A stretch of DNA of 64,000 nucleotides from Verrucomicrobiota bacterium (GCA_963205275.1 CAUJIH010000011.1:1-64000), one strand, 5' to 3'. Positions 3,305-26,497 are shown, counted from the first letter of the stretch. Numbers and translations: made by a program. The notes: generated by a model from the sequence alone, not told the origin.

Positions 3305-3452
3305 GCGCCGCAGGCTTTGGAGTGCGGTGGCCCGACACCGCTTTCCGTACAAACCCTACCATCTACCACCACCTAAAATCGCACCCTTTCCCCTCTACCG
3401 CCCAAGGCTCCGAAAAAGCGGTGTCGGGCCACCGCACTCCAAAGCGCCTCGC
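3305..3452. repeat. REP-like inverted repeat pair between res and mod
   Basis: CTTTGGAGTGCGGTGGCCCG... at 3315-3344 and its exact 30-bp reverse complement at 3415-3444 are separated by 70 bp. Each arm also folds alone (GCGGTG paired with CACCGC, six-base loop). The unit fills most of the 219-bp gap between the two restriction-modification genes. It could act as a transcription attenuator or mRNA stabiliser between res and mod. The same family recurs at 6393-6539, 7171-7789 and 9960-10005. Confidence 0.85.
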
Positions 3453-3520
3453 GCTGAACGCGTTGTACACTATCCCTGCACTAGCACTTCATAATTCATA
3501 ATTTCCCCAATCCTTTCCCC

Positions 3521-6349
3521 ATGTCCGCTCAACAGAAAAAGACCGTCGTCACTCAAAAGCACATCGATGCTACCCGCACCAACATCCCTACGGCGGAGAT
3601 GCAGTCTGTCGTGGATGATGAGGTGAAGCAGGCGATCGAACTCGCTTACGAAAATCGTAATCCGGACCTCGACCCGCAACTCGTCTGGCGGGGGAAATAC
3701 GACGCGGATCAACTCCTCGTCCAAGCGCCACCGCTCTACATCCAAGAGAAAATCCACCCCAAGGCGCTCATTGACGATCTCCAGCGCGTCACCCGCGAGA
3801 GTAAGGAGGAGCAAGGGCTGGAAACTCCCGATCTCTTTGCCGATTTCAATGGCTTCTCCAGCGAGGCAAAGACCGCCGACTTCTACCAGCACCACGGACA
3901 CTGGACCAACCGCATGATCTTGGGCGATTCCCTGCAAGTCATGGCCAGCCTCGCCGAGCGCGAGGGCCTGCGCGGCAAAGTGCAGTGTATCTACCTCGAC
4001 CCGCCCTACGGCATCAAGTTCAACTCGAACTTCCAGTGGTCCACCACCAGCCGCGATGTCAAAGACGGCAACAAAGATCACATCACCCGCGAGCCGGAAA
4101 TGGTCAAAGCCTTCCGTGATACCTGGCGCGATGGCATCCATTCCTACCTCAGCTACCTCCGCGATCGCCTCATCGTCGCCAAGGATTTGCTTACCGAATC
4201 AGGGTCTATTTTCGTGCAGATTGGCGATGAGAATGTTCATCGAGTACGGGCTGTGATGGATGAGGTGTTTGGGGAGGAGAATTTTGTGAGTATAATCACC
4301 TATGCAAAAACAACTGGCTTTTCAGGCAATACTTTATCGTCCATTGCAGACTATATAGTATGGTACGCTAAATCTAAGGACTCTGTTAAGTATAGACAGT
4401 CATTAATTAATAAAAGTGCGCACGGAGAAGGAAAATCAAAATATAGGCCGGGTCATACAATAACTGCATTACAACTTTTCCCGTTTGATCTGAATAGAGA
4501 GGCGGTTTCAGATCAATTGACTTCGCAAGGAGCTTCTCCAAACAGCGAGCAGAAGTGGGAATTTCAAGGTAAGATTTGGAATCCTTCAACAGGACTTCAC
4601 TGGAAAACTAGATTAGAAGGGCTAGATCGTCTAGCTCTAGCAAGTCGTGTAATGCCAGAAGGGAATTCTGTTCGATATGTTCGGTTTTTTGATGATTTTT
4701 CTGTTCAACCGCGTGTTAATGTATGGATGGATATTGGTGGAATTCAGAGTCGTTCAGATCCAAAAGTCTATGTTGTACAGACTGCAACCGAAGCCATCCA
4801 ACGCTGCCTCCTCATGGCCACCGATCCCGGCGACCTCGTGCTCGCCCCACCCTGCGGCTCCGGCACCACCGCCTACGTGGCCGAGCAGTGGGGACGACGT
4901 TGGATCACCATCGACACCTCGCGCGTTTCCCTCGCGCTAGCCCGCGCCCGCCTCATGGGAGCACGCTATCCCTACTACCTCCTCGCCGACTCCCGCGAGG
5001 GCCAGTTGAAAGAAGCCGAAGTCACCCGCAGCGTCCCCCGCGACGCGCCCACCTACGGCAAGATTTCCCACGGTTTCGTCTACGAACGCGTGCCCCACAT
5101 CATGCTGCGCGACATCGCCAACAACGCGGAAATCGATGTCATCTGGGACCAATTCGAGCGACAGCTCCAGCCCCTGCGCGAAGCACTGACTGCCGAACTT
5201 CCCCAAGGCTGGCTGGCCATCTACCGCAAGGCCCAAAAATACACCGCCGAGGTGCCCGTGGAGATTGCCGAGTGGGAGGTGCCCCGCGAGCGCCCCGCCG
5301 AGTGGCCGGAATCCACCCAGGCATGGCTCGATCAATTCTGGAAACTCCGCATCGCCCGCCAGAAGGAAATCGATGCCTCCATCGCCGCCAAGTCCGAGTC
5401 CGAATACCTCTACGACAAACCCTACGAGAACAAAAGTAAAGTCCGCGTGGCTAGCCCCTTCACCGTCGAATCCGTCTCCCCCCACCGCATGCTCCACGTG
5501 GGGCCAGAGGATGAAGTGATCGATCCTTGGAAAAAGGTCAACGAAGACCCCACCGAACTCAAGCGCATGCAGGACTTCACCACCCTCATGCTGGAGAACC
5601 TACGAACCGCTGGCGTGCAGCAAGCGCACAAAGAGAATCGGCTCCATTTTGACAGCATAGATGCCTTCCCCGGCAGCGGCTACGTCTGCGCCATAGGCAC
5701 CTACACCGAGGGCGAGAGCGAGAACGCCCCCACCCGCCGCGCCGCCATCCACATCGGCCCCGAGTTCGGCACCACCAGCCGCGAAGACCTCGTGGCCGCC
5801 GCCCGCGAGGCCGGCGACTTGCAGGCCGACATACTCCTCGCCTGCGCCTTCAACTACGACGCCCACGCCACCGAGTTCGAGCGACTCGGCAAAATCCCCG
5901 TCCTCAAAGCCCGCATGAACGCTGACATGCACATGGCCACCGATCTGAAGAAGACCAAGACCGCCAACCTCTTCGTCGTCTTTGGAGAGCCGGACGTAGA
6001 AGTGGAAAAGCTGGAAGGCGATCAGCTCCGCGTCCACCTCCACGGAGTGGATGTGTTCAAGCCCCAGACCGGCGAAGTCGTCAGCAGCGAACCCGACGAC
6101 ATCGCCTGTTGGATGGTAGACACCGACTACAACGAAGAGAGCTTTTTCGTTCGCCAAGCCTACTTTCTCGGTCAGAACGATCCCTACCAATCGCTCAAGA
6201 CCACCCTAAAAGCCGAGATCAACCGCGAGGCCTGGGAAACCCTCCGCAGCACCATCAGCCGCCCCTTCCCCCGCCCCGCCACCGGGCGCATCGCCGTCAA
6301 GGTCATCAACCACCTAGGCGACGAGGTAATGAAAGTGATTGCGGTGTGA
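3521..6349 (+). CDS. Site-specific DNA methyltransferase, beta class, long Mod-type subunit
   Basis: A 942-residue N6-adenine/N4-cytosine-type methyltransferase. Motif IV (DPPYG) lies near residue 160 and motif I (CGSGTT) near 445, so the order IV-TRD-I marks the beta class used by type III Mod subunits. It should protect host DNA from the upstream helicase-nuclease. At 942 residues it is much longer than a usual Mod of about 650; the extra part is a C-terminal region (about 500-942) with no motif I recognise. Two oddities are visible. Residues about 220-425, the expected target-recognition domain, are encoded by markedly AT-rich DNA (about 4190-4795) inside GC-rich flanks, as after domain exchange. 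Motif I reads LVLAPPCGSGTT where the family normally has Asp before the proline (D-P-x-x-G-S-G), which may affect cofactor binding. The frame is open throughout. Confidence 0.88.
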   Translation: MSAQQKKTVVTQKHIDATRTNIPTAEMQSVVDDEVKQAIELAYENRNPDLDPQLVWRGKYDADQLLVQAPPLYIQEKIHPKALIDDLQRVTRESKEEQGLETPDLFADFNGFSSEAKTADFYQHHGHWTNRMILGDSLQVMASLAEREGLRGKVQCIYLDPPYGIKFNSNFQWSTTSRDVKDGNKDHITREPEMVKAFRDTWRDGIHSYLSYLRDRLIVAKDLLTESGSIFVQIGDENVHRVRAVMDEVFGEENFVSIITYAKTTGFSGNTLSSIADYIVWYAKSKDSVKYRQSLINKSAHGEGKSKYRPGHTITALQLFPFDLNREAVSDQLTSQGASPNSEQKWEFQGKIWNPSTGLHWKTRLEGLDRLALASRVMPEGNSVRYVRFFDDFSVQPRVNVWMDIGGIQSRSDPKVYVVQTATEAIQRCLLMATDPGDLVLAPPCGSGTTAYVAEQWGRRWITIDTSRVSLALARARLMGARYPYYLLADSREGQLKEAEVTRSVPRDAPTYGKISHGFVYERVPHIMLRDIANNAEIDVIWDQFERQLQPLREALTAELPQGWLAIYRKAQKYTAEVPVEIAEWEVPRERPAEWPESTQAWLDQFWKLRIARQKEIDASIAAKSESEYLYDKPYENKSKVRVASPFTVESVSPHRMLHVGPEDEVIDPWKKVNEDPTELKRMQDFTTLMLENLRTAGVQQAHKENRLHFDSIDAFPGSGYVCAIGTYTEGESENAPTRRAAIHIGPEFGTTSREDLVAAAREAGDLQADILLACAFNYDAHATEFERLGKIPVLKARMNADMHMATDLKKTKTANLFVVFGEPDVEVEKLEGDQLRVHLHGVDVFKPQTGEVVSSEPDDIACWMVDTDYNEESFFVRQAYFLGQNDPYQSLKTTLKAEINREAWETLRSTISRPFPRPATGRIAVKVINHLGDEVMKVIAV

Positions 6350-16824: not shown

Positions 16825-17841
16825 TCAGCCAATCTGAACAGAACCGTCGAGGCTCTTCGTGAACTTGTGCACAACCTCACCTTTCGCATTGTGATACGTG
16901 AAAAGTATCTTGTCAGCGCTCAGATTCATGTGGAGAAAGCCATTAATCCCCTCCCCATAGGGAATCGGTCGCTTGGTGCTGATCACGGGACGTGTGGTCG
17001 CTCCCCCTGCGCCGGCCAATAGGAATGAGGTGAACTTCCCGTCGATCTCGATATGCTGGAGATCGTGATCGTGTCCGGCTAGGTAGGCATGGACTTTGTG
17101 CTCCTGAAAGAGTGGCCCCCATGAATCGATCAGACGCTGTGTGTCCTTGTGCGAACCGTTGCTGTAGAGCGGAAAGTGCGACATAACAATTGTAAAGGGA
17201 GCACGCGGTTTAGCCAACTCCTCCTTCAGCCAAGCATCCTGTTCAGCCGCTTCCTTTTTAGTTCGATATGTAAAGGTTTTCCCGGTTTTCTTGTTTCTGG
17301 AAGTGCCGACCGTATTGCTGTCGAGAGCGATCACCGTTGCATACGGTGAGGCCTCCGGCCCCAGTTCAAAGCGGAACCACTTGGCCGGCATTTTCCAACG
17401 CGTCCCCGGCTTTTTGGAATATTCCAACTGCACCTTCTCACCGCCGATGTTGTTCGAGTAATCGTGATTCCCTAGCACAGCATAAAACGGGCCGGGAAAA
17501 ACAGAAGCCGGGTACATATCTTCAAACACTTCTTTCCAAAGCGTCGAGTCCACGGAGAACTTTCCTTTATCTACTGCGTAGAAATTATCTCCGAGCAAGA
17601 GCATGCAATCGGGAGTCAGATTCGATGTCTGACAAAATTTCGCCATGGTTTCCGCAACCTTCTTTTGAGCAGCACCAGTTGTACCGAAGTCACCGATGAT
17701 CAGTGCGTTTACTGATTTTCCATCACCCGCCGCTCCATGCACGGATCGGGAGAGGAGATCTAGGGAGAGAAGTGCGCCGGAGCCGAGGAGTGTCTTTAAC
17801 GTACGGCGGCGACTGGGATGACTTTGGCTCGTTTCGATCAT
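16825..17841 (-). CDS. Tat-exported metallophosphoesterase (purple acid phosphatase-like)
   Basis: A 338-residue calcineurin-like phosphoesterase. The N-terminus carries a twin-arginine signal (RRRTLKTLLGSGALL). The metal-binding blocks appear in order: GDFGT near 50, LLGDNFY near 82, GNHD near 124, VMSHFPLY near 218 and AGHDHD near 256. This is the pattern of acid phosphatases and related enzymes with a dinuclear metal centre, and it would release phosphate outside the cytoplasm. It is followed, beyond a 400-bp gap, by a second exported phosphatase on the same strand, which suggests phosphate scavenging. Substrate is unknown. The ATG at 17841 is required to include the Tat motif. Confidence 0.88.
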   Translation of the reverse strand: MIETSQSHPSRRRTLKTLLGSGALLSLDLLSRSVHGAAGDGKSVNALIIGDFGTTGAAQKKVAETMAKFCQTSNLTPDCMLLLGDNFYAVDKGKFSVDSTLWKEVFEDMYPASVFPGPFYAVLGNHDYSNNIGGEKVQLEYSKKPGTRWKMPAKWFRFELGPEASPYATVIALDSNTVGTSRNKKTGKTFTYRTKKEAAEQDAWLKEELAKPRAPFTIVMSHFPLYSNGSHKDTQRLIDSWGPLFQEHKVHAYLAGHDHDLQHIEIDGKFTSFLLAGAGGATTRPVISTKRPIPYGEGINGFLHMNLSADKILFTYHNAKGEVVHKFTKSLDGSVQIG

Positions 17842-18239: not shown

Positions 18240-19916
18240 TCAAAAGGAGCTGAAGTCGATTACCTCAGGCAGTGCATTTCCTACCGCCCCATTCGGTGGC
18301 TGAATGCGCAGGATGCTCGTGATCGTCGGAGCGATGTCCTCCATGTGAACGGTCCGAAAGCACTTGCCTCCCTTTTTTACTCCCCAGCCGATCCACAGAT
18401 TCGGAATTTTAGAATCATAGGGATTCCAATCGCGGTGCGTCGTCCCCTGCGACTTGAGTGAGAGACTATTCGGATAGAGGATGAAAATGATGCGCCCGCT
18501 GCGCTCCTGATTGTACCCATTGACGATTTTCGTACGGATGACTTCGGGAATCGCCGCGTCTCCGACGTGATACATGTCCACCACATGCTCGATCAGAGGA
18601 TTTCGACGCAACTGCTGCATACAGATCTCGGTCATTTTTTCCTCATCGATTTTATTGTCTCGGATGAGAGCGTAGTTGTAATACAGTTCCGAATCGCTCG
18701 TCACTTTTGCGATCAGCTTATCTACGCCGAACTCTGTCTTCAGAAGCTTGTTCAAGTTGCTCGCAATCTCGTTACCGGAAGCAGTGTTGACCTGCAGTTT
18801 ATGCTGCTTCAAGAAAGAGGTATTGTGATTTCCCCCGTGATCTGCCGTCAAGAATAGCGTATATTGCCCCTTGCCAATCTGTTCATCGAGGTAGCTGAAG
18901 AAGCTAGCAAAATCGCGGTCCAAGCGCAGAAAGACGTCCTCTGTCTCGATAGCGTTTGGACCGAACTGGTGAGAAACCGAGTCCGTGCAGGGTAGATTGA
19001 TCGTCAGCATGTCGGTTTCTCCTCGCTGCCCCAGTTTTTCATTGGCGATCACTGCTTTCGCAAAATCTAGGACCAGCGAATTACCGAAAGGGGTATTGTA
19101 GAAGATCGTAAAATCGTCTGAACTGTGCAATTCTGACAGTTTGATCGGGAAAACCGGTTTCTCCTGTCCTTTGTACGCCTTTTCCCACGGGGAATCATCC
19201 GGCGAACTCTGGAGGTAGGTCTCGATGGGATAGAGCGTGTTCCATTCTCCACTGAGAACTTTCTTCACTCGACCTTCTGCGTTGAAATCCTGTACCCACT
19301 TCGGAAGTTCCTTCATGTAATACGTGCTACTGATCCAGTTTCCCTCCTTTTTCTCCAGCCAATAGGCGGCATCGGCTGCGTGACCCGCAGGCAGGATGGC
19401 TGCGCGATCCTTCAGCGAGACCCCGATGACCTTGGCACGGAAATTGGTTGCCAGCTTCAGTTGGTCTCCGATGGTATCGGCCAGCATGAAGTGAGGAGAC
19501 ATTTTCCCGGCTTCGCTCGTTGTGCCGACAGAATCGACATTCTCGTCGGAGACGGCGTTGCTCTGCGCTCCAGTAGAATTGAAAATCAACTCATTCGAGG
19601 TAATCCCATGAACGGCCGGAACGGTCCCGGTAAAGACCGTCGCATGCCCTACCGCAGTGATCGAAGGGATGTGATTAATGTAGGTATTCTCAAAGGAATA
19701 TCCGTCGTTGATCAGGCGTTTGAAGCCACCTTCACCGTAGCGGTCATAATAGCGATAGAGGTAATCCCATCGCATCTGATCGACCGCGATTCCCACGACC
19801 AGCTTGGGTCGCCTGAGCTTGCTCGCTTCCTGTTTTCCCTGTTCTTGTCCCCGTCCGAGTGCACAACCGAGGATCATCGTCGTCACTCCCAAAATAACCA
19901 ATACAGTCTGTCTCAT
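18240..19916 (-). CDS. Secreted alkaline phosphatase, PafA-like (type I phosphodiesterase/nucleotide pyrophosphatase superfamily)
   Basis: A 558-residue alkaline phosphatase superfamily protein with a signal peptide (ILGVTTMILGCALGRG). The first metal Asp is in GIAVDQMRWDYLYR. The nucleophile Thr is in the ITAVGHATVFTG segment, as in the PafA group. The later metal-binding blocks appear as LPCTDSVSHQFGP and TADHGG, with a C-terminal H in THRDWNPYD. It should hydrolyse phosphate monoesters outside the cell. PafA-type enzymes are typical of Bacteroidota and PVC bacteria. The gene ends 10 bp beyond a possible small ORF and is transcribed away from the secreted dehydrogenase pair, so 19,917-20,187 is a shared divergent control region. 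Confidence 0.88.
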   Translation of the reverse strand: MRQTVLVILGVTTMILGCALGRGQEQGKQEASKLRRPKLVVGIAVDQMRWDYLYRYYDRYGEGGFKRLINDGYSFENTYINHIPSITAVGHATVFTGTVPAVHGITSNELIFNSTGAQSNAVSDENVDSVGTTSEAGKMSPHFMLADTIGDQLKLATNFRAKVIGVSLKDRAAILPAGHAADAAYWLEKKEGNWISSTYYMKELPKWVQDFNAEGRVKKVLSGEWNTLYPIETYLQSSPDDSPWEKAYKGQEKPVFPIKLSELHSSDDFTIFYNTPFGNSLVLDFAKAVIANEKLGQRGETDMLTINLPCTDSVSHQFGPNAIETEDVFLRLDRDFASFFSYLDEQIGKGQYTLFLTADHGGNHNTSFLKQHKLQVNTASGNEIASNLNKLLKTEFGVDKLIAKVTSDSELYYNYALIRDNKIDEEKMTEICMQQLRRNPLIEHVVDMYHVGDAAIPEVIRTKIVNGYNQERSGRIIFILYPNSLSLKSQGTTHRDWNPYDSKIPNLWIGWGVKKGGKCFRTVHMEDIAPTITSILRIQPPNGAVGNALPEVIDFSSF

Positions 19917-20187: not shown

Positions 20188-20874
20188 ATGCGCCTGTTGC
20201 TGGCCATCGCCTGTCTTCTCATAGCAATGCCTCTAATCCAAGGAGAACCAAGCGAAAACTCCAAACAGCGAGCGGAGGAACGCTATCCTCAAGTATTTCG
20301 AACCTTCATGCCTGAAGCGGGTCCTTCCGCCTTCGCGGTGCAGCTTTCTCCGAATCTGGGACTCTGCTACGATCCGCTTCGCGGTGGCGTGAACCAGATA
20401 TGGAGGGGAAGGGTCGATCTAACACCGACGAATCTGGCGAAGATCAATCAGGTCGCGATGGTGCCTGAAGCTGTATTTTATGAGGAGCGGCTGGTGCAAC
20501 CGCTGCACCTAGGTGCAATCGATGCACCGGTGGAGCGACGTTTCAAAGGATACCGTTACGAGAAAGACGTCGTCATTTTCGAATACACGATTAATGGCCA
20601 TTTGATCAGTGAGTCTCTAAGGATGACCTCCGACGGCTCGAGCGTAGAGCGAATCTTTCGGCTTCCCAAGGACGGCGGCGAAGCCTTTTTGCCTGTTGAA
20701 CCGCAATCGAAATCCAAAGTCTCGATAGAAGGAGGCAGTGAACAATCCTCTGGGCTATGGACTTTTCCCGCTGGGGGCGAAATTCGGATGTTCATTCGCC
20801 CTCGGGACGTGATCATCAGCCATCTGCCCGTAAAGCGCCGTACATCTTCTCCCCTTGCCCATTCCTGCTCGTGA
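20188..20874 (+). CDS. Secreted protein of unknown function coupled to the dehydrogenase
   Basis: A 228-residue protein with a signal peptide (MRLLLAIACLLIAMPLIQG). The tracked frame starts earlier with TTG at 20155, but the ATG at 20188 puts the signal sequence at the N-terminus, so I use it. The mature part contains FAVQLSPNLGLCYDPLRGGVNQIWRG and many beta-strand-like stretches; the single Cys-containing segment does not match a haem motif. I do not recognise a family. The stop overlaps the next start as GTGA, so the two products are probably made in fixed ratio and may work together in the periplasm, for example as an accessory or substrate-binding part of the dehydrogenase. Confidence 0.7.
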   Translation: MRLLLAIACLLIAMPLIQGEPSENSKQRAEERYPQVFRTFMPEAGPSAFAVQLSPNLGLCYDPLRGGVNQIWRGRVDLTPTNLAKINQVAMVPEAVFYEERLVQPLHLGAIDAPVERRFKGYRYEKDVVIFEYTINGHLISESLRMTSDGSSVERIFRLPKDGGEAFLPVEPQSKSKVSIEGGSEQSSGLWTFPAGGEIRMFIRPRDVIISHLPVKRRTSSPLAHSCS

Positions 20875-22850
20875 GTGCGACCTCCTCTTTCATTCCCTAC
20901 ATTTCGCTCGCTTTCGTTTTCGCGGTTGTGCCCCTCTGCTCCGGAGAAGACTCTGGGAATTCCTATGAAATCGAGGAAATTCATCTACCTCAAGACATGA
21001 ATCCTGAAATCTCAGGAGTTGCCTTTACACCGAGAGGGAGGCTCGTAGTGACGAATCGCCACGGAGATGTCTGGTTCACCGATCATCCGAGCGAAGGTCC
21101 GTGGCACCGTTATGCCTTCGGACTTCATGAACCTGTCGGTATTCTCGCCGTATCGGATCGAGAAATCTACGTCACCCAGCGTCCGGAACTCACGCGCTTG
21201 CTCGATACTGATGGCGACGGAGTCGCAGATCGCTACGAGACGGTCAACGACGACTGGTGCATGACGGACAACTGGCACGAATTCACTTTTGGACTGCATC
21301 GTGACAAGAAGGGGAATTTTCTTCTCGCTGTGGGGATGCCGGACATGGCTGGTCCCTTCAACTCCCGATATCCGCGCCTGCCGCTCAGCGAGGTCAAAGT
21401 TCAGAAAGAGCAGAAGCCCTCGCTAGGGAGCTATCAAGGCTGGGTTCTGAGCATCTCTCCGGAGGGAAAAATGATTCCGGTCGCCAGTGGATTTCGTCAG
21501 CCTGCGGGGATAGGAATCAGCCCAGATGACGAAGTGTTCGTGACTGATCAGCAGGGGGATTATATCGCGACCAGCACTCTAGCTCATATCAAACCCGGTG
21601 GATTTTACGGCTATCCAGCCTCGCTGAAGTGGAGGGAAGATTACCGCGGGCCAATTCCCGATATCGAAACGCTGGCAGCCATGCGTATCCCGGAATCGGT
21701 CTCACTGCCTCACGGCGCTCTGGGCGGAAGCCCCGGAGAACCGATCTGGGACACGACAGGAGGAAAGTTTGGTCCCTTTGAGGGGCAAGTCTTTATCGGG
21801 GACTTCACGAAGCTCATTAGTCGCGTTTTCCTCGAAAAAGTGGCCGGAGAATATCAAGGAGCCGCCTTCCCGTTCATCCGCGATGCCGTGGGATTGGAAG
21901 CCATTCAGGCCAATAGTGGAGCGAATAATCTGACCATTCCGGCGGGAAAAGAAGGGCTGAAATACTTTCGCGACACGCCTCCGCGTTCCGGGACTCCATT
22001 GAGGCCTGGGAACATGCGCATGGTTTTCGCTCCTGACGGCAGTCTCTATAGTGGACAAACGACGCGAGGCTGGGGAAAAGGCGATGGGCTGCAGCGCATC
22101 GTCTGGAGCGGACGCGATCCGGTGGAAATAGAGGCCATCCGACTGACCAAAGACGGCTTTGACATCTCTTTCACTACCGAGATGGATGCAGCAAAGCTGG
22201 CCGCTGAGGAGACGTGGAAGCTAAGTCGATTTCGCTACCTATATCTTCCGGGTGGTTCTTATCGGGTGGATGTAACAGATTGTCGGATCACCTCGATTCA
22301 TCCAGCGGCGGATGGTCGAAGGGTTTCTTTGAAAATCGAAGCACTTGACCCCGGATATATCTACGAATTCGAACCGTGGGAACTCGTCTCATCCACCGGG
22401 AAACCAGTGGAGAACCCTCTGGCCTTTTACACGCTCAATCGCCTACTCGACGGACGAAGGTTCGAAGGACCGCTGACTCGTGCTCTGCTAAAGGAAAAAC
22501 CGAGTAACAGCGAAATTAATCTGACTGCTGGGGCACAGGTGTACAGCGCCTTTTGCATGATTTGTCACCAGGCGGACGGACGAGGCGGGGCCCTGCCGGG
22601 ATCGGAAGCGAGTGCTGGCAGTGGAGTTGTATCGCTCGCTGCGGCGAATTTCCGTCAGCGTGGGCCGGACTCACCACTCGCGAAAAGTGACGAAGATTTA
22701 GTCCGCATCGTCACGCATGGCCCAGAGGGCAAACCCATGCCTCCTTTCGGTGGGGTGTTGAGTCAGGAGCAAATCCGCAATGTTATCGCCTACCTTCGCA
22801 GCGCCTTCGGAAAATCCGAGCCTTCCCCTGAGCAAAAATCTGTAAAATAA
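20871..22850 (+). CDS. Secreted beta-propeller dehydrogenase with C-terminal cytochrome c domain
   Basis: A protein of about 659 residues. I place the start at the GTG at 20871, which overlaps the previous stop (GTGA) and gives a clean signal peptide (SFIPYISLAFVFAVVPLCSG). The ATG-initiated frame at 20757 would bury that signal behind 38 residues. The body resembles sorbosone/glucose dehydrogenase-type propellers (GVAFTPRGRLVVTNRHGDVW; GFRQPAGIGISPDDEVFVTDQQGD). The C-terminal cytochrome c has CMICH near 562, GGALPG and MPPFGGVLSQEQIRNVIAYLR, which supplies the methionine ligand. It would oxidise a sugar or similar compound and pass electrons to haem c. The substrate is unknown and cofactor (PQQ or none) cannot be told. 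Confidence 0.82.
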   Translation: MSATSSFIPYISLAFVFAVVPLCSGEDSGNSYEIEEIHLPQDMNPEISGVAFTPRGRLVVTNRHGDVWFTDHPSEGPWHRYAFGLHEPVGILAVSDREIYVTQRPELTRLLDTDGDGVADRYETVNDDWCMTDNWHEFTFGLHRDKKGNFLLAVGMPDMAGPFNSRYPRLPLSEVKVQKEQKPSLGSYQGWVLSISPEGKMIPVASGFRQPAGIGISPDDEVFVTDQQGDYIATSTLAHIKPGGFYGYPASLKWREDYRGPIPDIETLAAMRIPESVSLPHGALGGSPGEPIWDTTGGKFGPFEGQVFIGDFTKLISRVFLEKVAGEYQGAAFPFIRDAVGLEAIQANSGANNLTIPAGKEGLKYFRDTPPRSGTPLRPGNMRMVFAPDGSLYSGQTTRGWGKGDGLQRIVWSGRDPVEIEAIRLTKDGFDISFTTEMDAAKLAAEETWKLSRFRYLYLPGGSYRVDVTDCRITSIHPAADGRRVSLKIEALDPGYIYEFEPWELVSSTGKPVENPLAFYTLNRLLDGRRFEGPLTRALLKEKPSNSEINLTAGAQVYSAFCMICHQADGRGGALPGSEASAGSGVVSLAAANFRQRGPDSPLAKSDEDLVRIVTHGPEGKPMPPFGGVLSQEQIRNVIAYLRSAFGKSEPSPEQKSVK

Positions 22851-22856
22851 GCTATC

Positions 22857-23831
22857 ATGTACTTCCGTATCCGCCTCCTCTCTGTCGTCGCCGGTCTCTC
22901 TCTCTGGATGACCTTCGGCCTTCTGTCTCATGCCGAGCCCGGAGAGAATGTGAAAGAGCCGCGCATCAACCACTTCATCGAGATGATGGAAGCCGGAAAA
23001 CATGCCTTCGGAGTCTTTTCTCATAATGTATCCGTCCGCACCGGCGCGGGAATGGCGAGTAGCGGTCTGGATTTCGTCATCGTCGATCTGGAACATTCAC
23101 CTTACGATCCGACCCGCTTGGAAGGCTATCTGCTGGGCATGATTGACAAAGCAGGAATCACGAAGAAGGGGCTCGTGCAGCCCACCACACCGATCATTCG
23201 AGTCCCTGCCGCCGGACGCGAGCACTTGCAGTTCGTGATCAAACAGGTGCTCGATCTCGGTCCCATGGGCATTCTTGTCCCCCACGTCGAAACAGCAGAA
23301 GATGCTCGCGCCATGGTGCAGGCGAGTCGCTTTCCTCAACTCAAAGGCGTTCCCGACTTTGCCCCGGAAGGCAAACGGGGCGTCGGATACGGTTGGGCCG
23401 CCCGCTATTGGGGACTCAGCGGGGGGGACTATGCCCGTCGAGCCGACCTCTGGCCGCTCGATCCGCAGGGCGAGCTAGTTCTCTGGGTGATGATCGAGAG
23501 CGTCCCCGCTGTAGAAAACTGCCGAGCCATCGCTGAGACTCCCGGAATTGGCGGACTCTTCGTCGGACCTTCGGATCTCGCGTTTTCAATGGGGGTACCG
23601 CTCGGAGATCCTTCGGTAGAAGTCGCAATTGAAACGGTGCTCACTGAAACGAAGGACACAGGTGTACGACTCGGCACACTCTGTGGAGCGAAGGAGGTCG
23701 AGCATCGACTGGAGCAGGGCTTCCACTTTCTCGCCGTCGGTGGTGATGGCGGGCCTTCTGGTTCTGTGCAGGAGGCTGTAAAACTCGGGCGATCTTTTAA
23801 GAAATCTTCCAGCGGCAAGTCGAACAAGTGA
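22857..23831 (+). CDS. HpcH/HpaI aldolase family protein with an N-terminal signal peptide
   Basis: A 324-residue protein starting 6 bp after the dehydrogenase stop. The core matches the HpcH/HpaI (2-oxo-acid aldolase/citrate-lyase-like) barrel: FVIVDLEHSPYD, LGPMGILVPHVETAEDAR, VMIESVPAVENCRAI and GGLFVGPSDLAFSMG. The family normally works in the cytoplasm on 2-keto-3-deoxy acids with a divalent metal. Here the first 27 residues (LLSVVAGLSLWMTFGLLSHAE) form a credible export signal before the conserved region begins, so the enzyme may act in the periplasm beside the secreted dehydrogenase. Family assignment is firm; location is inferred from the signal alone. Confidence 0.85.
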   Translation: MYFRIRLLSVVAGLSLWMTFGLLSHAEPGENVKEPRINHFIEMMEAGKHAFGVFSHNVSVRTGAGMASSGLDFVIVDLEHSPYDPTRLEGYLLGMIDKAGITKKGLVQPTTPIIRVPAAGREHLQFVIKQVLDLGPMGILVPHVETAEDARAMVQASRFPQLKGVPDFAPEGKRGVGYGWAARYWGLSGGDYARRADLWPLDPQGELVLWVMIESVPAVENCRAIAETPGIGGLFVGPSDLAFSMGVPLGDPSVEVAIETVLTETKDTGVRLGTLCGAKEVEHRLEQGFHFLAVGGDGGPSGSVQEAVKLGRSFKKSSSGKSNK

Positions 23832-24404: not shown

Positions 24405-25010
24405 ATGCAGGCATTCTGGCAGTACTTTTCGCCCTTGTGGCGAGCGCTCAATCCAGAGCTACAGATCTTTTACGGGATCGGTATCATCGCCCTCGTGATT
24501 CTGCTTCTACAGTTACTGATCAGTTTTTTCTTGGGGGATTCCGATTCCTTTGATCTAGACGTCGATGGACATGGCGATGGGATGGGAGTTTTCTCTGTTC
24601 GTGGGGTCACGGCTTTCTTTATTGGATTCGGCTGGACGGGAGCGATCATCCTACGGGCAGGCCATTCCCTGGGGCTAGCCGTTCTAGGTGGTGCATTAGT
24701 TGGCATGGTTTTTATGGTGGCCATCTTTCTCATGATGCGATCCATGATGAAACTCCAGGCGAGCGGCACATTGAACTACGCCAACGCCGTTGGCGAAGTA
24801 GCTACCGTATATGTAACGATTCCAGCGGACACAAAAGCAGGCGGGCAGGTAGAGGTAATGATTCAGGGTCGTCTCATGACCGCAGAGGCAATTTATCGCG
24901 GTCCAGTCGCAATTTCTCCTGGCACAAAAGTCCAGGTGATTGATCGAGTCGGTTCTTCCACGCTCGTCGTCTCCCCGCTCAGTTCATCGTCCACACTCCC
25001 CACTCATTAA
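24405..25010 (+). CDS. NfeD/YuaF-like membrane protein, partner of flotillin
   Basis: A 201-residue membrane protein. Three hydrophobic segments are visible (about 22-45, 65-90 and 92-112), followed by a C-terminal domain from about 120 with the beta-rich OB-fold character of NfeD proteins (GEVATVYVTIPADTKAGGQV...VQVIDRVGSSTLVVSPL). NfeD-like proteins are encoded next to flotillin/SPFH proteins and are thought to assist membrane microdomain assembly; the flotillin gene follows 20 bp downstream, which confirms the pairing. An acidic patch (DSDSFDLDVDGHGDG) sits between TM1 and TM2. No protease domain is present, so this is a short form. Confidence 0.78.
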   Translation: MQAFWQYFSPLWRALNPELQIFYGIGIIALVILLLQLLISFFLGDSDSFDLDVDGHGDGMGVFSVRGVTAFFIGFGWTGAIILRAGHSLGLAVLGGALVGMVFMVAIFLMMRSMMKLQASGTLNYANAVGEVATVYVTIPADTKAGGQVEVMIQGRLMTAEAIYRGPVAISPGTKVQVIDRVGSSTLVVSPLSSSSTLPTH

Positions 25011-25030
25011 CCCTCCCCTCGCTCCCTATT

Positions 25031-26497
25031 ATGAATATTGAAATCCTCGTCCTCGTCGGTGCCGCAGCGGTCCTCATCTTTTCGATGATTCTGGCTCTAG
25101 CCTCCCGCTATAAAAAGTGCCCATCTGATCGCATCCTCGTCGTCTATGGAAAGGTCGGTTCCGGCAAGTCTGCGCAATGCTACCACGGCGGAGCGGCGTT
25201 CATCTGGCCGATCATTCAGGACTATCAGTATCTCAGCCTTACCCCATTGCCCATTGACATCAAGCTGGAGGGCGCGCTGTCCAAACAAAACATCCGGGTG
25301 AATACACCATCGACTTTTACCGTTGGGATCTCGACAGAACCCGGCGTGATGGAGAACGCCGCCGAGCGCCTGTTGGGGCTGACGCTCCAACACGTCAACG
25401 AGCTGGCGAAAGACATTATCTTTGGGCAAATGCGCGTGGTGATCGCCACGATGGATATCGAGGAAATCAATGCGGACCGTGACAAGCTGATCGCCAATAT
25501 TTCCACCGGGGTAGAGGTAGAACTCAAGAAAGTCGGCCTGCGACTAATCAACGTGAACGTCCAAGACATCACGGACGCCTCTGGCTACATCGATGCACTC
25601 GGGCAGGAAGCGGCCTCCAAGGCGATCGCCGAAGCTAAAATCAAAGTCGCCGAGGCGGACCGCGATGGAGAGATCGGTTCGGCAGCCGCTCAGCGAGATA
25701 AGAGAATTGCGGTATCGAATGCCAACGCGGAAGCGACACGGGGAGAGAACACGGCGGCAGTCGATATCGCCAATTCCAACGCTCAACGTCGCAGTGCCCA
25801 GGCCGAAGCAGATCGACTGGCAACAGCGGCGGAGAAAGTGGCAGAGGCCAAGGTGCTCGAAGAAGCCTACGCCGCCGAACAAAAGGCGGAGCAACAGCGT
25901 GCTGAGCGGGAGCGAGCGACGCAACACGCGAATATCGTCGTGCCCGCCGAGATCGCCAAAGAGCGTCAAATCGTGGAGGCAGATGCTGAAGCGGAGAAAG
26001 CACGCCGTATACAACAGGGGATGTCCGACGCCGTCCGATCAGAGAAACAGGCTGAAGCGGATGGGATCAAGTTCGTCCAGATTGCCGAAGCAGAGGGGAT
26101 CCGGGCCAAACTGCTGGCCGAAGCCGAAGGCGCACAGGCGGTGCTCACCGGTAAAGCGAAGGGTTTCAAAGATCTCGTCGAAAGCTGTTCCGGACCTCAG
26201 GGAGCGCAACAAATGCTGGTCACAGAACTGCTTCCCCAGCTTGTTCGCGAGCAAGTGCAGGCGATTTCTAACCTGCAGATCGACAAGATTACCGTCTGGG
26301 ATGGCGGTGCTGGAGCGAACGGAAAATCTTCTACAGCGAACTTCCTCTCCGGTTTTGGCTCGGTAGTTCCACCACTGCATGAACTTGCGAGGAACGCTGG
26401 CATTGAACTGCCGGAGTATCTCGGAAAGATGGCGGAGGAAGAGGTGAAATCTCCGCCCATTGTCGCTCCCATAGCACCACCGAAGAATGCAGAGTAA
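25031..26497 (+). CDS. Flotillin-like SPFH-domain protein
   Basis: A 488-residue flotillin. An N-terminal hydrophobic anchor (about 4-25) is followed by an SPFH domain (ILVVYGKVGSGKSAQCYHGG, FIWPIIQDYQYLSL, RLLGLTLQHVNELAKDIIFGQMR). A long Ala/Glu/Lys-rich coiled-coil stalk spans about 200-385 (EAKIKVAEADRDGEIGSAAA and similar repeats), and the C-terminal oligomerisation region ends near AGIELPEYLGKM. Flotillins form rings or scaffolds in the inner membrane and are tied to membrane fluidity and protein organisation. It is the second gene of an NfeD-flotillin pair. The GKVGSGKS stretch looks like a P-loop but is a conserved part of the SPFH region of this family, not an ATP site. Confidence 0.92.
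   Translation: MNIEILVLVGAAAVLIFSMILALASRYKKCPSDRILVVYGKVGSGKSAQCYHGGAAFIWPIIQDYQYLSLTPLPIDIKLEGALSKQNIRVNTPSTFTVGISTEPGVMENAAERLLGLTLQHVNELAKDIIFGQMRVVIATMDIEEINADRDKLIANISTGVEVELKKVGLRLINVNVQDITDASGYIDALGQEAASKAIAEAKIKVAEADRDGEIGSAAAQRDKRIAVSNANAEATRGENTAAVDIANSNAQRRSAQAEADRLATAAEKVAEAKVLEEAYAAEQKAEQQRAERERATQHANIVVPAEIAKERQIVEADAEAEKARRIQQGMSDAVRSEKQAEADGIKFVQIAEAEGIRAKLLAEAEGAQAVLTGKAKGFKDLVESCSGPQGAQQMLVTELLPQLVREQVQAISNLQIDKITVWDGGAGANGKSSTANFLSGFGSVVPPLHELARNAGIELPEYLGKMAEEEVKSPPIVAPIAPPKNAE

Follow-up and report, generated by a model that had tools for sequence, protein, structure and literature searches.

The closest described relatives of the proteins analyzed here fall into families of uneven familiarity. 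HpaI, GarL, and YfaU share the HpcH_HpaI domain (PF03328) and are class II pyruvate aldolases, a group that is, to our knowledge, cytoplasmic. Propellers are found in the PVC-type haem-binding CxxCH proteins (TIGR02604, N-terminal part; GSDH-NHL propellers) and in the soluble PQQ glucose/sorbosone dehydrogenases (PF07995). For the DUF6797 proteins (PF20601), our literature search retrieved no paper naming the domain and no described function, and a search for exported HpaI aldolases returned nothing relevant.

Layout of the three-gene cassette

The window, i.e., the whole stretch of 64,000 nucleotides analyzed in this study, belongs to a 4.08-Mb draft genome of Verrucomicrobiales. Three genes on the + strand constitute the cassette, of which the features are as follows.

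20188-20874, +: gene 1 (228 aa), secreted stand-alone DUF6797-type protein without an electron-carrier domain
20188-20244, +: predicted signal peptide of gene 1, MRLLLAIACLLIAMPLIQG (hydropathy)
20287-20727, +: DUF6797-type domain of gene 1 (profile boundaries; alignment A2)
20871-20874, +: GTGA overlap, the start of gene 2 lying in the stop of gene 1; the two are likely coupled in translation
20871-22850, +: gene 2 (GTG start, 659 aa), secreted dehydrogenase-like propeller protein ending in a cytochrome c
20871-20945, +: predicted signal peptide of gene 2 (hydropathy)
20964-21878, +: propeller part of gene 2 (family profile match; PVC-type/TIGR02604 superfamily)
21879-21989, +: insertion of ~37 residues in gene 2 (RDAVGLEAIQ...; alignment A1, motif scan), only in aldolase-linked propellers
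22521-22796, +: C-terminal cytochrome c domain of gene 2 (Cytochrome_CBB3), with the CMICH haem motif at 22554-22568
22851-22856, +: 6-bp spacer between the TAA of gene 2 (22848-22850) and the ATG of gene 3 (22857)
22857-23831, +: gene 3 (324 aa), exported HpcH/HpaI-type class II aldolase homologue
22857-22934, +: predicted signal peptide of gene 3 (hydropathy)
23049-23750, +: HpcH_HpaI domain of gene 3 (PF03328; Pfam, alignment)

The coordinates, the GTGA overlap, the 6-bp gap, and the three export signals reported in the first-pass annotation were all reproduced. A Sec-type N-terminal hydrophobic segment was found in each of genes 1, 2, and 3, with the best 12-residue mean hydropathy of 3.15, 2.63, and 2.03, respectively, as judged by a simple hydropathy scan rather than SignalP. 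Because the gene upstream of the cassette, encoding a PafA-type alkaline phosphatase (18240-19916; NF042991 over cutoff), is on the - strand, the cassette is probably a transcription unit of its own. The PafA-type gene adjoins that of a calcineurin-like phosphoesterase with a twin-arginine-like start (16825-17841, - strand), and the two are likely a phosphate-scavenging pair divergent from the cassette. At 24405-26497 on the + strand, a membrane NfeD-like protein precedes a flotillin (FloT-like, below cutoff), which is an established membrane-scaffold combination.

The DUF6797-propeller pair and its electron carrier

Gene 1 itself received no direct family match in the Pfam and curated profile searches. 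The first-pass annotation regarded its product as an unknown secreted protein; the predicted signal peptide agrees with secretion, but the protein is identifiable through its homologues, as the relatives aligned with gene 1 in L077, L025, L125, L184, and L188 matched PF20601 above cutoff. Gene 1 relatives were detected in 59 of the 190 genomes of the order, several of them being longer and matching DUF6797 of Pfam, and profile iteration over the fetched loci recovered the DUF6797-type domain in 62 reading frames. As far as these homologues indicate, gene 1 represents a diverged DUF6797-type protein that stands alone. It shares with the DUF6797 proteins the position immediately upstream of a propeller gene but lies below detection, and most of its relatives bear a cytochrome c, a five-haem array, or an azurin/plastocyanin-type cupredoxin N-terminal to the DUF6797 domain. 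A sequence-profile search of PDB with DUF6797 yielded no credible match.

The family varies in architecture. The five-CxxCH form was found in L107, L110, L117-L121, L123, L124, L126, L128, L129, L131-L133, and L135-L138 (family f4), where the overlap with the propeller gene is mostly -7. DUF6807, an azurin-like cupredoxin, and DUF6797 reside in a single protein of L106 (4898-6850), and other DUF6797 relatives are fused to PA14 domains. Upstream of the propeller in L190, a 3-keto-disaccharide hydrolase domain (PF06439) is fused ahead of DUF6797 (3414-5558); no haem motif was seen in this fusion protein, and the contig ends inside the propeller. Two more distant DUF6797-type copies are present in the genome of the window (G000:C22:55285-55722 and G000:C70:7722-8207).

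Gene 2 showed weak Pfam matches to NHL and GSDH together with a match to Cytochrome_CBB3 (E = 2e-12) that covers the CMICH motif. On these profile matches, gene 2 is best described as an NHL/GSDH-like propeller of the PVC type that ends in a cbb3-type cytochrome c, in agreement with the propeller-cytochrome c protein claimed previously. It resembles the TIGR02604 proteins in being secreted and in belonging to the same propeller superfamily, but scored 26.5 bits (E = 3.8e-6) against the curated cutoff of 122.2 bits (relatives reached up to 4e-16), had no HEAT array found in it, and differs further in its standing DUF6797 partner and its cbb3-type cytochrome c end. The weak propeller similarity extends to the PF07995 dehydrogenases, from which gene 2 is separated by a score under the Pfam cutoff (19.5 versus 25 bits), the two-protein architecture, and the lack of detected PQQ synthesis genes. 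Neither PqqC nor an above-cutoff PqqE was found in the 7 genomes searched, albeit PqqC had no match in the control genomes either, rendering that control uninformative; PQQ dependence via host synthesis is thus unsupported by the search. We also set aside the matches of the propeller profile in PDB, which were mostly designed 'Pizza' NHL repeats and were driven by a short repeat match.

A DUF6797 gene lies directly upstream of a propeller gene on the same strand, the spacing being mostly -4 or -7 nt. Such pairs are widespread across the phylum and form a module with likely translational coupling, in agreement with the coupling that had been proposed from the GTGA overlap alone. We then located the electron-carrier unit (cytochrome c, multi-haem array, or cupredoxin) in each locus. 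Of the 78 scorable loci, 66 had it on the DUF6797 protein, 8 on the propeller, and 4 in a fusion of the two, and none had it on both or on neither; these numbers are a tally of sampled, mutually related genomes that favour one order and include drafts with contig breaks, and not a probability. Within the order, the carrier was confined to the DUF6797 protein in 50 loci (42 cytochromes and 8 cupredoxins) and to the propeller in 6, and 2 loci were fusions. A further 20 loci, sampled elsewhere in the phylum (other orders and classes), were divided into 16 of the DUF6797 side, a single one of the propeller side (L188), 2 fusions, and an unscorable one (L190); L190 and L127, both at contig edges, were omitted from the count. 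L076 was discarded as a candidate carrier-less pair, as a frameshift had placed its CGTCH motif in another frame. The natural fusions are of three kinds, namely DUF6797-propeller-cytochrome c (L093), cytochrome c-DUF6797-propeller (L130 and L187), and cupredoxin-DUF6797-propeller (L186). Such a one-carrier rule is what is expected if the DUF6797 protein and the propeller form one electron-transferring unit.

A structure model of the L093 fusion was unsuitable for examining the interface between DUF6797 and the propeller (mean pLDDT of 54; propeller part unusable), and a fold search with this low-confidence model gave only propeller-like matches, in which GSDH, gluconolactonase, and NHL were mixed. 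This mixture, the weak SGL/gluconolactonase and NHL matches of family members, and the lack of a confident cofactor signature (no clear PQQ-type one in the gene 2 propeller) would fit a propeller acting as a lactonase, hydrolase, or binding scaffold, with DUF6797 and the carrier relaying electrons for another dehydrogenase. We regard this scenario as quite improbable, as GSDH-like matches recur and one carrier unit is always kept within the pair, single-chain fusions included. A propeller that itself oxidizes a substrate is preferred here.

The carrier is on the propeller side in the window, L070, L071, L074, L076, L091, L094, and the more distant L188, and the haem of the L093 fusion is also at the propeller end. 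Leaving L188 aside, these loci together with L093 correspond exactly to the aldolase-bearing genomes. The aldolase-linked propellers were monophyletic (100/100) with a stem of 0.97 changes per site. Furthermore, the ~37-residue insertion occurred in 8 of 8 aldolase-linked propellers and in no other propeller in the sample, as scored by the RDAVGL motif and alignment A1 (a regex length scan matched too far downstream and was unreliable). As the clade mixes the families f1, f4, and f5, transfer as a cassette is suggested; ancient presence with loss may be the alternative. In L188, the carrier is likewise shifted, but the insertion is absent and no aldolase lies in the stretch of that locus, implying that the carrier shift may have preceded the recruitment of the aldolase. 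The insertion and the aldolase may stem from one founding event.

The exported aldolase homologue

Gene 3 matched PF03328 with 93.1 bits (cutoff of 25 bits; E = 2e-26), and its best PDB matches by both sequence and fold were the class II aldolases HpaI, GarL, and YfaU (model pLDDT of 74; best Foldseek E = 3.6e-18). Besides the fold, gene 3 shares with them D77, H80, R115, D133, and the metal ligands E214 and D240, among which E214, D240, R115, and H80 are invariant in the orthologues. The equivalents of R115 and H80, Arg70 and His45, are reported to be important for specificity, C-C cleavage, and enolate stabilization (PMC8560999). On the other hand, gene 3 is far below the equivalog cutoffs of HpaI (108.1 versus 368.8 bits) and GarL (91 versus 406.75 bits), and is exported. 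The export signal, claimed previously for this protein alone, was detected in 14 of 14 distinct orthologues by the hydropathy scan, directly ahead of the start of the conserved domain. Two other HpcH/HpaI homologues in the same genome showed no such N-terminal segment by inspection.

The position two residues before the metal-binding Glu is Met (M212) in all of the orthologues but Gln in the displayed HpaI-family structures and in the two homologues just mentioned (VQIE and PQIE); thus, the reaction of gene 3 may differ. Coupled with a conserved, clade-specific block (GYGWAAR.WG...RAD.WPLD) and the presence of SbnG citrate synthase among the fold matches, this substitution raises the idea that gene 3 has retained the fold yet lost aldolase activity, catalyzing another metal-dependent 2-oxo-acid reaction instead. 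The retention of both metal ligands, R115, H80, and D133 makes this unlikely in our view, and we continue to treat gene 3 as a candidate aldolase.

Within the order, 7 of the 190 genomes possess a gene 3 orthologue (at least 69% identity), and the same 7 hold gene 1 (at least 45%) and gene 2 (at least 62%). The spacing between genes 2 and 3 is 6, 12, -4, and -4 nt in the window, G017, L091 (G082, of the window's genus), and L094, respectively. One extra cytochrome-propeller gene is inserted ahead of the aldolase gene in G066, the gap is ~0.7 kb in G005, and the genes are split over contigs in G136. The three-gene order noted in the window is therefore contiguous in Verrucomicrobiales wherever one contig spans it, barring the G066 insertion and the G005 gap. 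As the overlap of genes 1 and 2 and the three-gene order both recur in other families, the arrangement is more than chance.

The linkage does not hold beyond the order. No orthologue without a signal was encountered, but six genomes outside Verrucomicrobiales, from Planctomycetota, Kiritimatiellae, Acidobacteria, and Bryobacterales, carry the aldolase (53-77% identity) without an adjoining pair; 4 of the 6 had no propeller match at E <= 1e-20, and none has a propeller of the clade type. The aldolase thus does not need the pair as its redox partner. Its partners there are different: the gene follows a Tat-signal Gfo/Idh/MocA oxidoreductase gene in Planctomycetota (77%), lies beside a PSCyt1/DUF1549/DUF1553 cytochrome in Acidobacteria, and, in one Bryobacterales case, shares an overlap with a 3-keto-disaccharide hydrolase gene. 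In a Kiritimatiellae genome, the exported aldolase is directly followed by a protein combining XamI-type restriction endonuclease and Eco57I-type methylase domains (L092:6097-8847).

These pair-free genomes, the rare and patchy occurrence of the aldolase (2 of 388 in the phylum sample), and the monophyly of the clade, by which the co-occurrence may be a single event, invite a different reading, in which the pair is a redox module and the aldolase a neighbour that was transferred independently and acts on a substrate of its own, their adjacency reflecting one founding event and inheritance as a cassette. We consider this reading doubtful, albeit deserving attention. The cassette has been kept in four genera of three families with its order preserved and a spacing of -4 to 12 nt in four loci, the insertion is exclusive to its propellers, and several of the aldolase neighbours elsewhere are also exported redox or sugar enzymes. 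We therefore retain the reading in which the redox pair and the aldolase work together.

Proposed function

Altogether, we propose, with a probability of roughly 0.55, that the three genes are an extracytoplasmic cassette comprising a secreted redox pair and a recruited exported HpaI-type lyase. Genes 1 and 2 would each supply one half of a single secreted redox enzyme, in which the propeller bears the putative active site and oxidizes a small extracytoplasmic substrate, while gene 1, as the DUF6797-type standing partner, may hold or gate the complex. Electrons would be handed to the haem tethered at the end of the propeller protein and would then enter the cytochrome c pool, a path supported by the architecture of the pair. 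The metal-dependent gene 3 product would most likely cleave a 2-oxo-acid-type compound from the redox pair, or run in reverse; cleavage of the resulting or a related 2-oxo acid would give pyruvate and an aldehyde. We infer both the action of the pair as a dehydrogenase complex and the order of oxidation before cleavage.

The extracytoplasmic route of oxidation and cleavage envisaged in the first-pass annotation therefore stands in part. The coupled pair, the c-type haem of gene 2, and the export signals agree with it, and an oxidise-then-cleave route is plausible from sequence, but the pair-free aldolase genomes do not fit. The sugar acid named there as the substrate would go beyond the gene set, in which a redox pair and a class II aldolase fold are all that can be read. 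Indirect hints of sugar chemistry come from the 3-keto-disaccharide hydrolase fusion of L190, the PA14 fusions, and the aldolase neighbours.

More tentatively, the pair may represent a phylum-wide class of secreted two-subunit dehydrogenases, with DUF6797 as the obligate partner and the carrier as an interchangeable plug-in, in which one branch moved the carrier and added an exported aldolase for an extracytoplasmic oxidise-and-cleave pathway. The one-carrier rule and the natural fusions point to a specific role for DUF6797 that can be tested, namely as one half of a secreted redox enzyme. An exported aldolase family whose signals are kept in Verrucomicrobiales, Kiritimatiellae, Planctomycetota, and Acidobacteria would place the C-C cleavage of acids outside the cytoplasm, with the fragments then imported.
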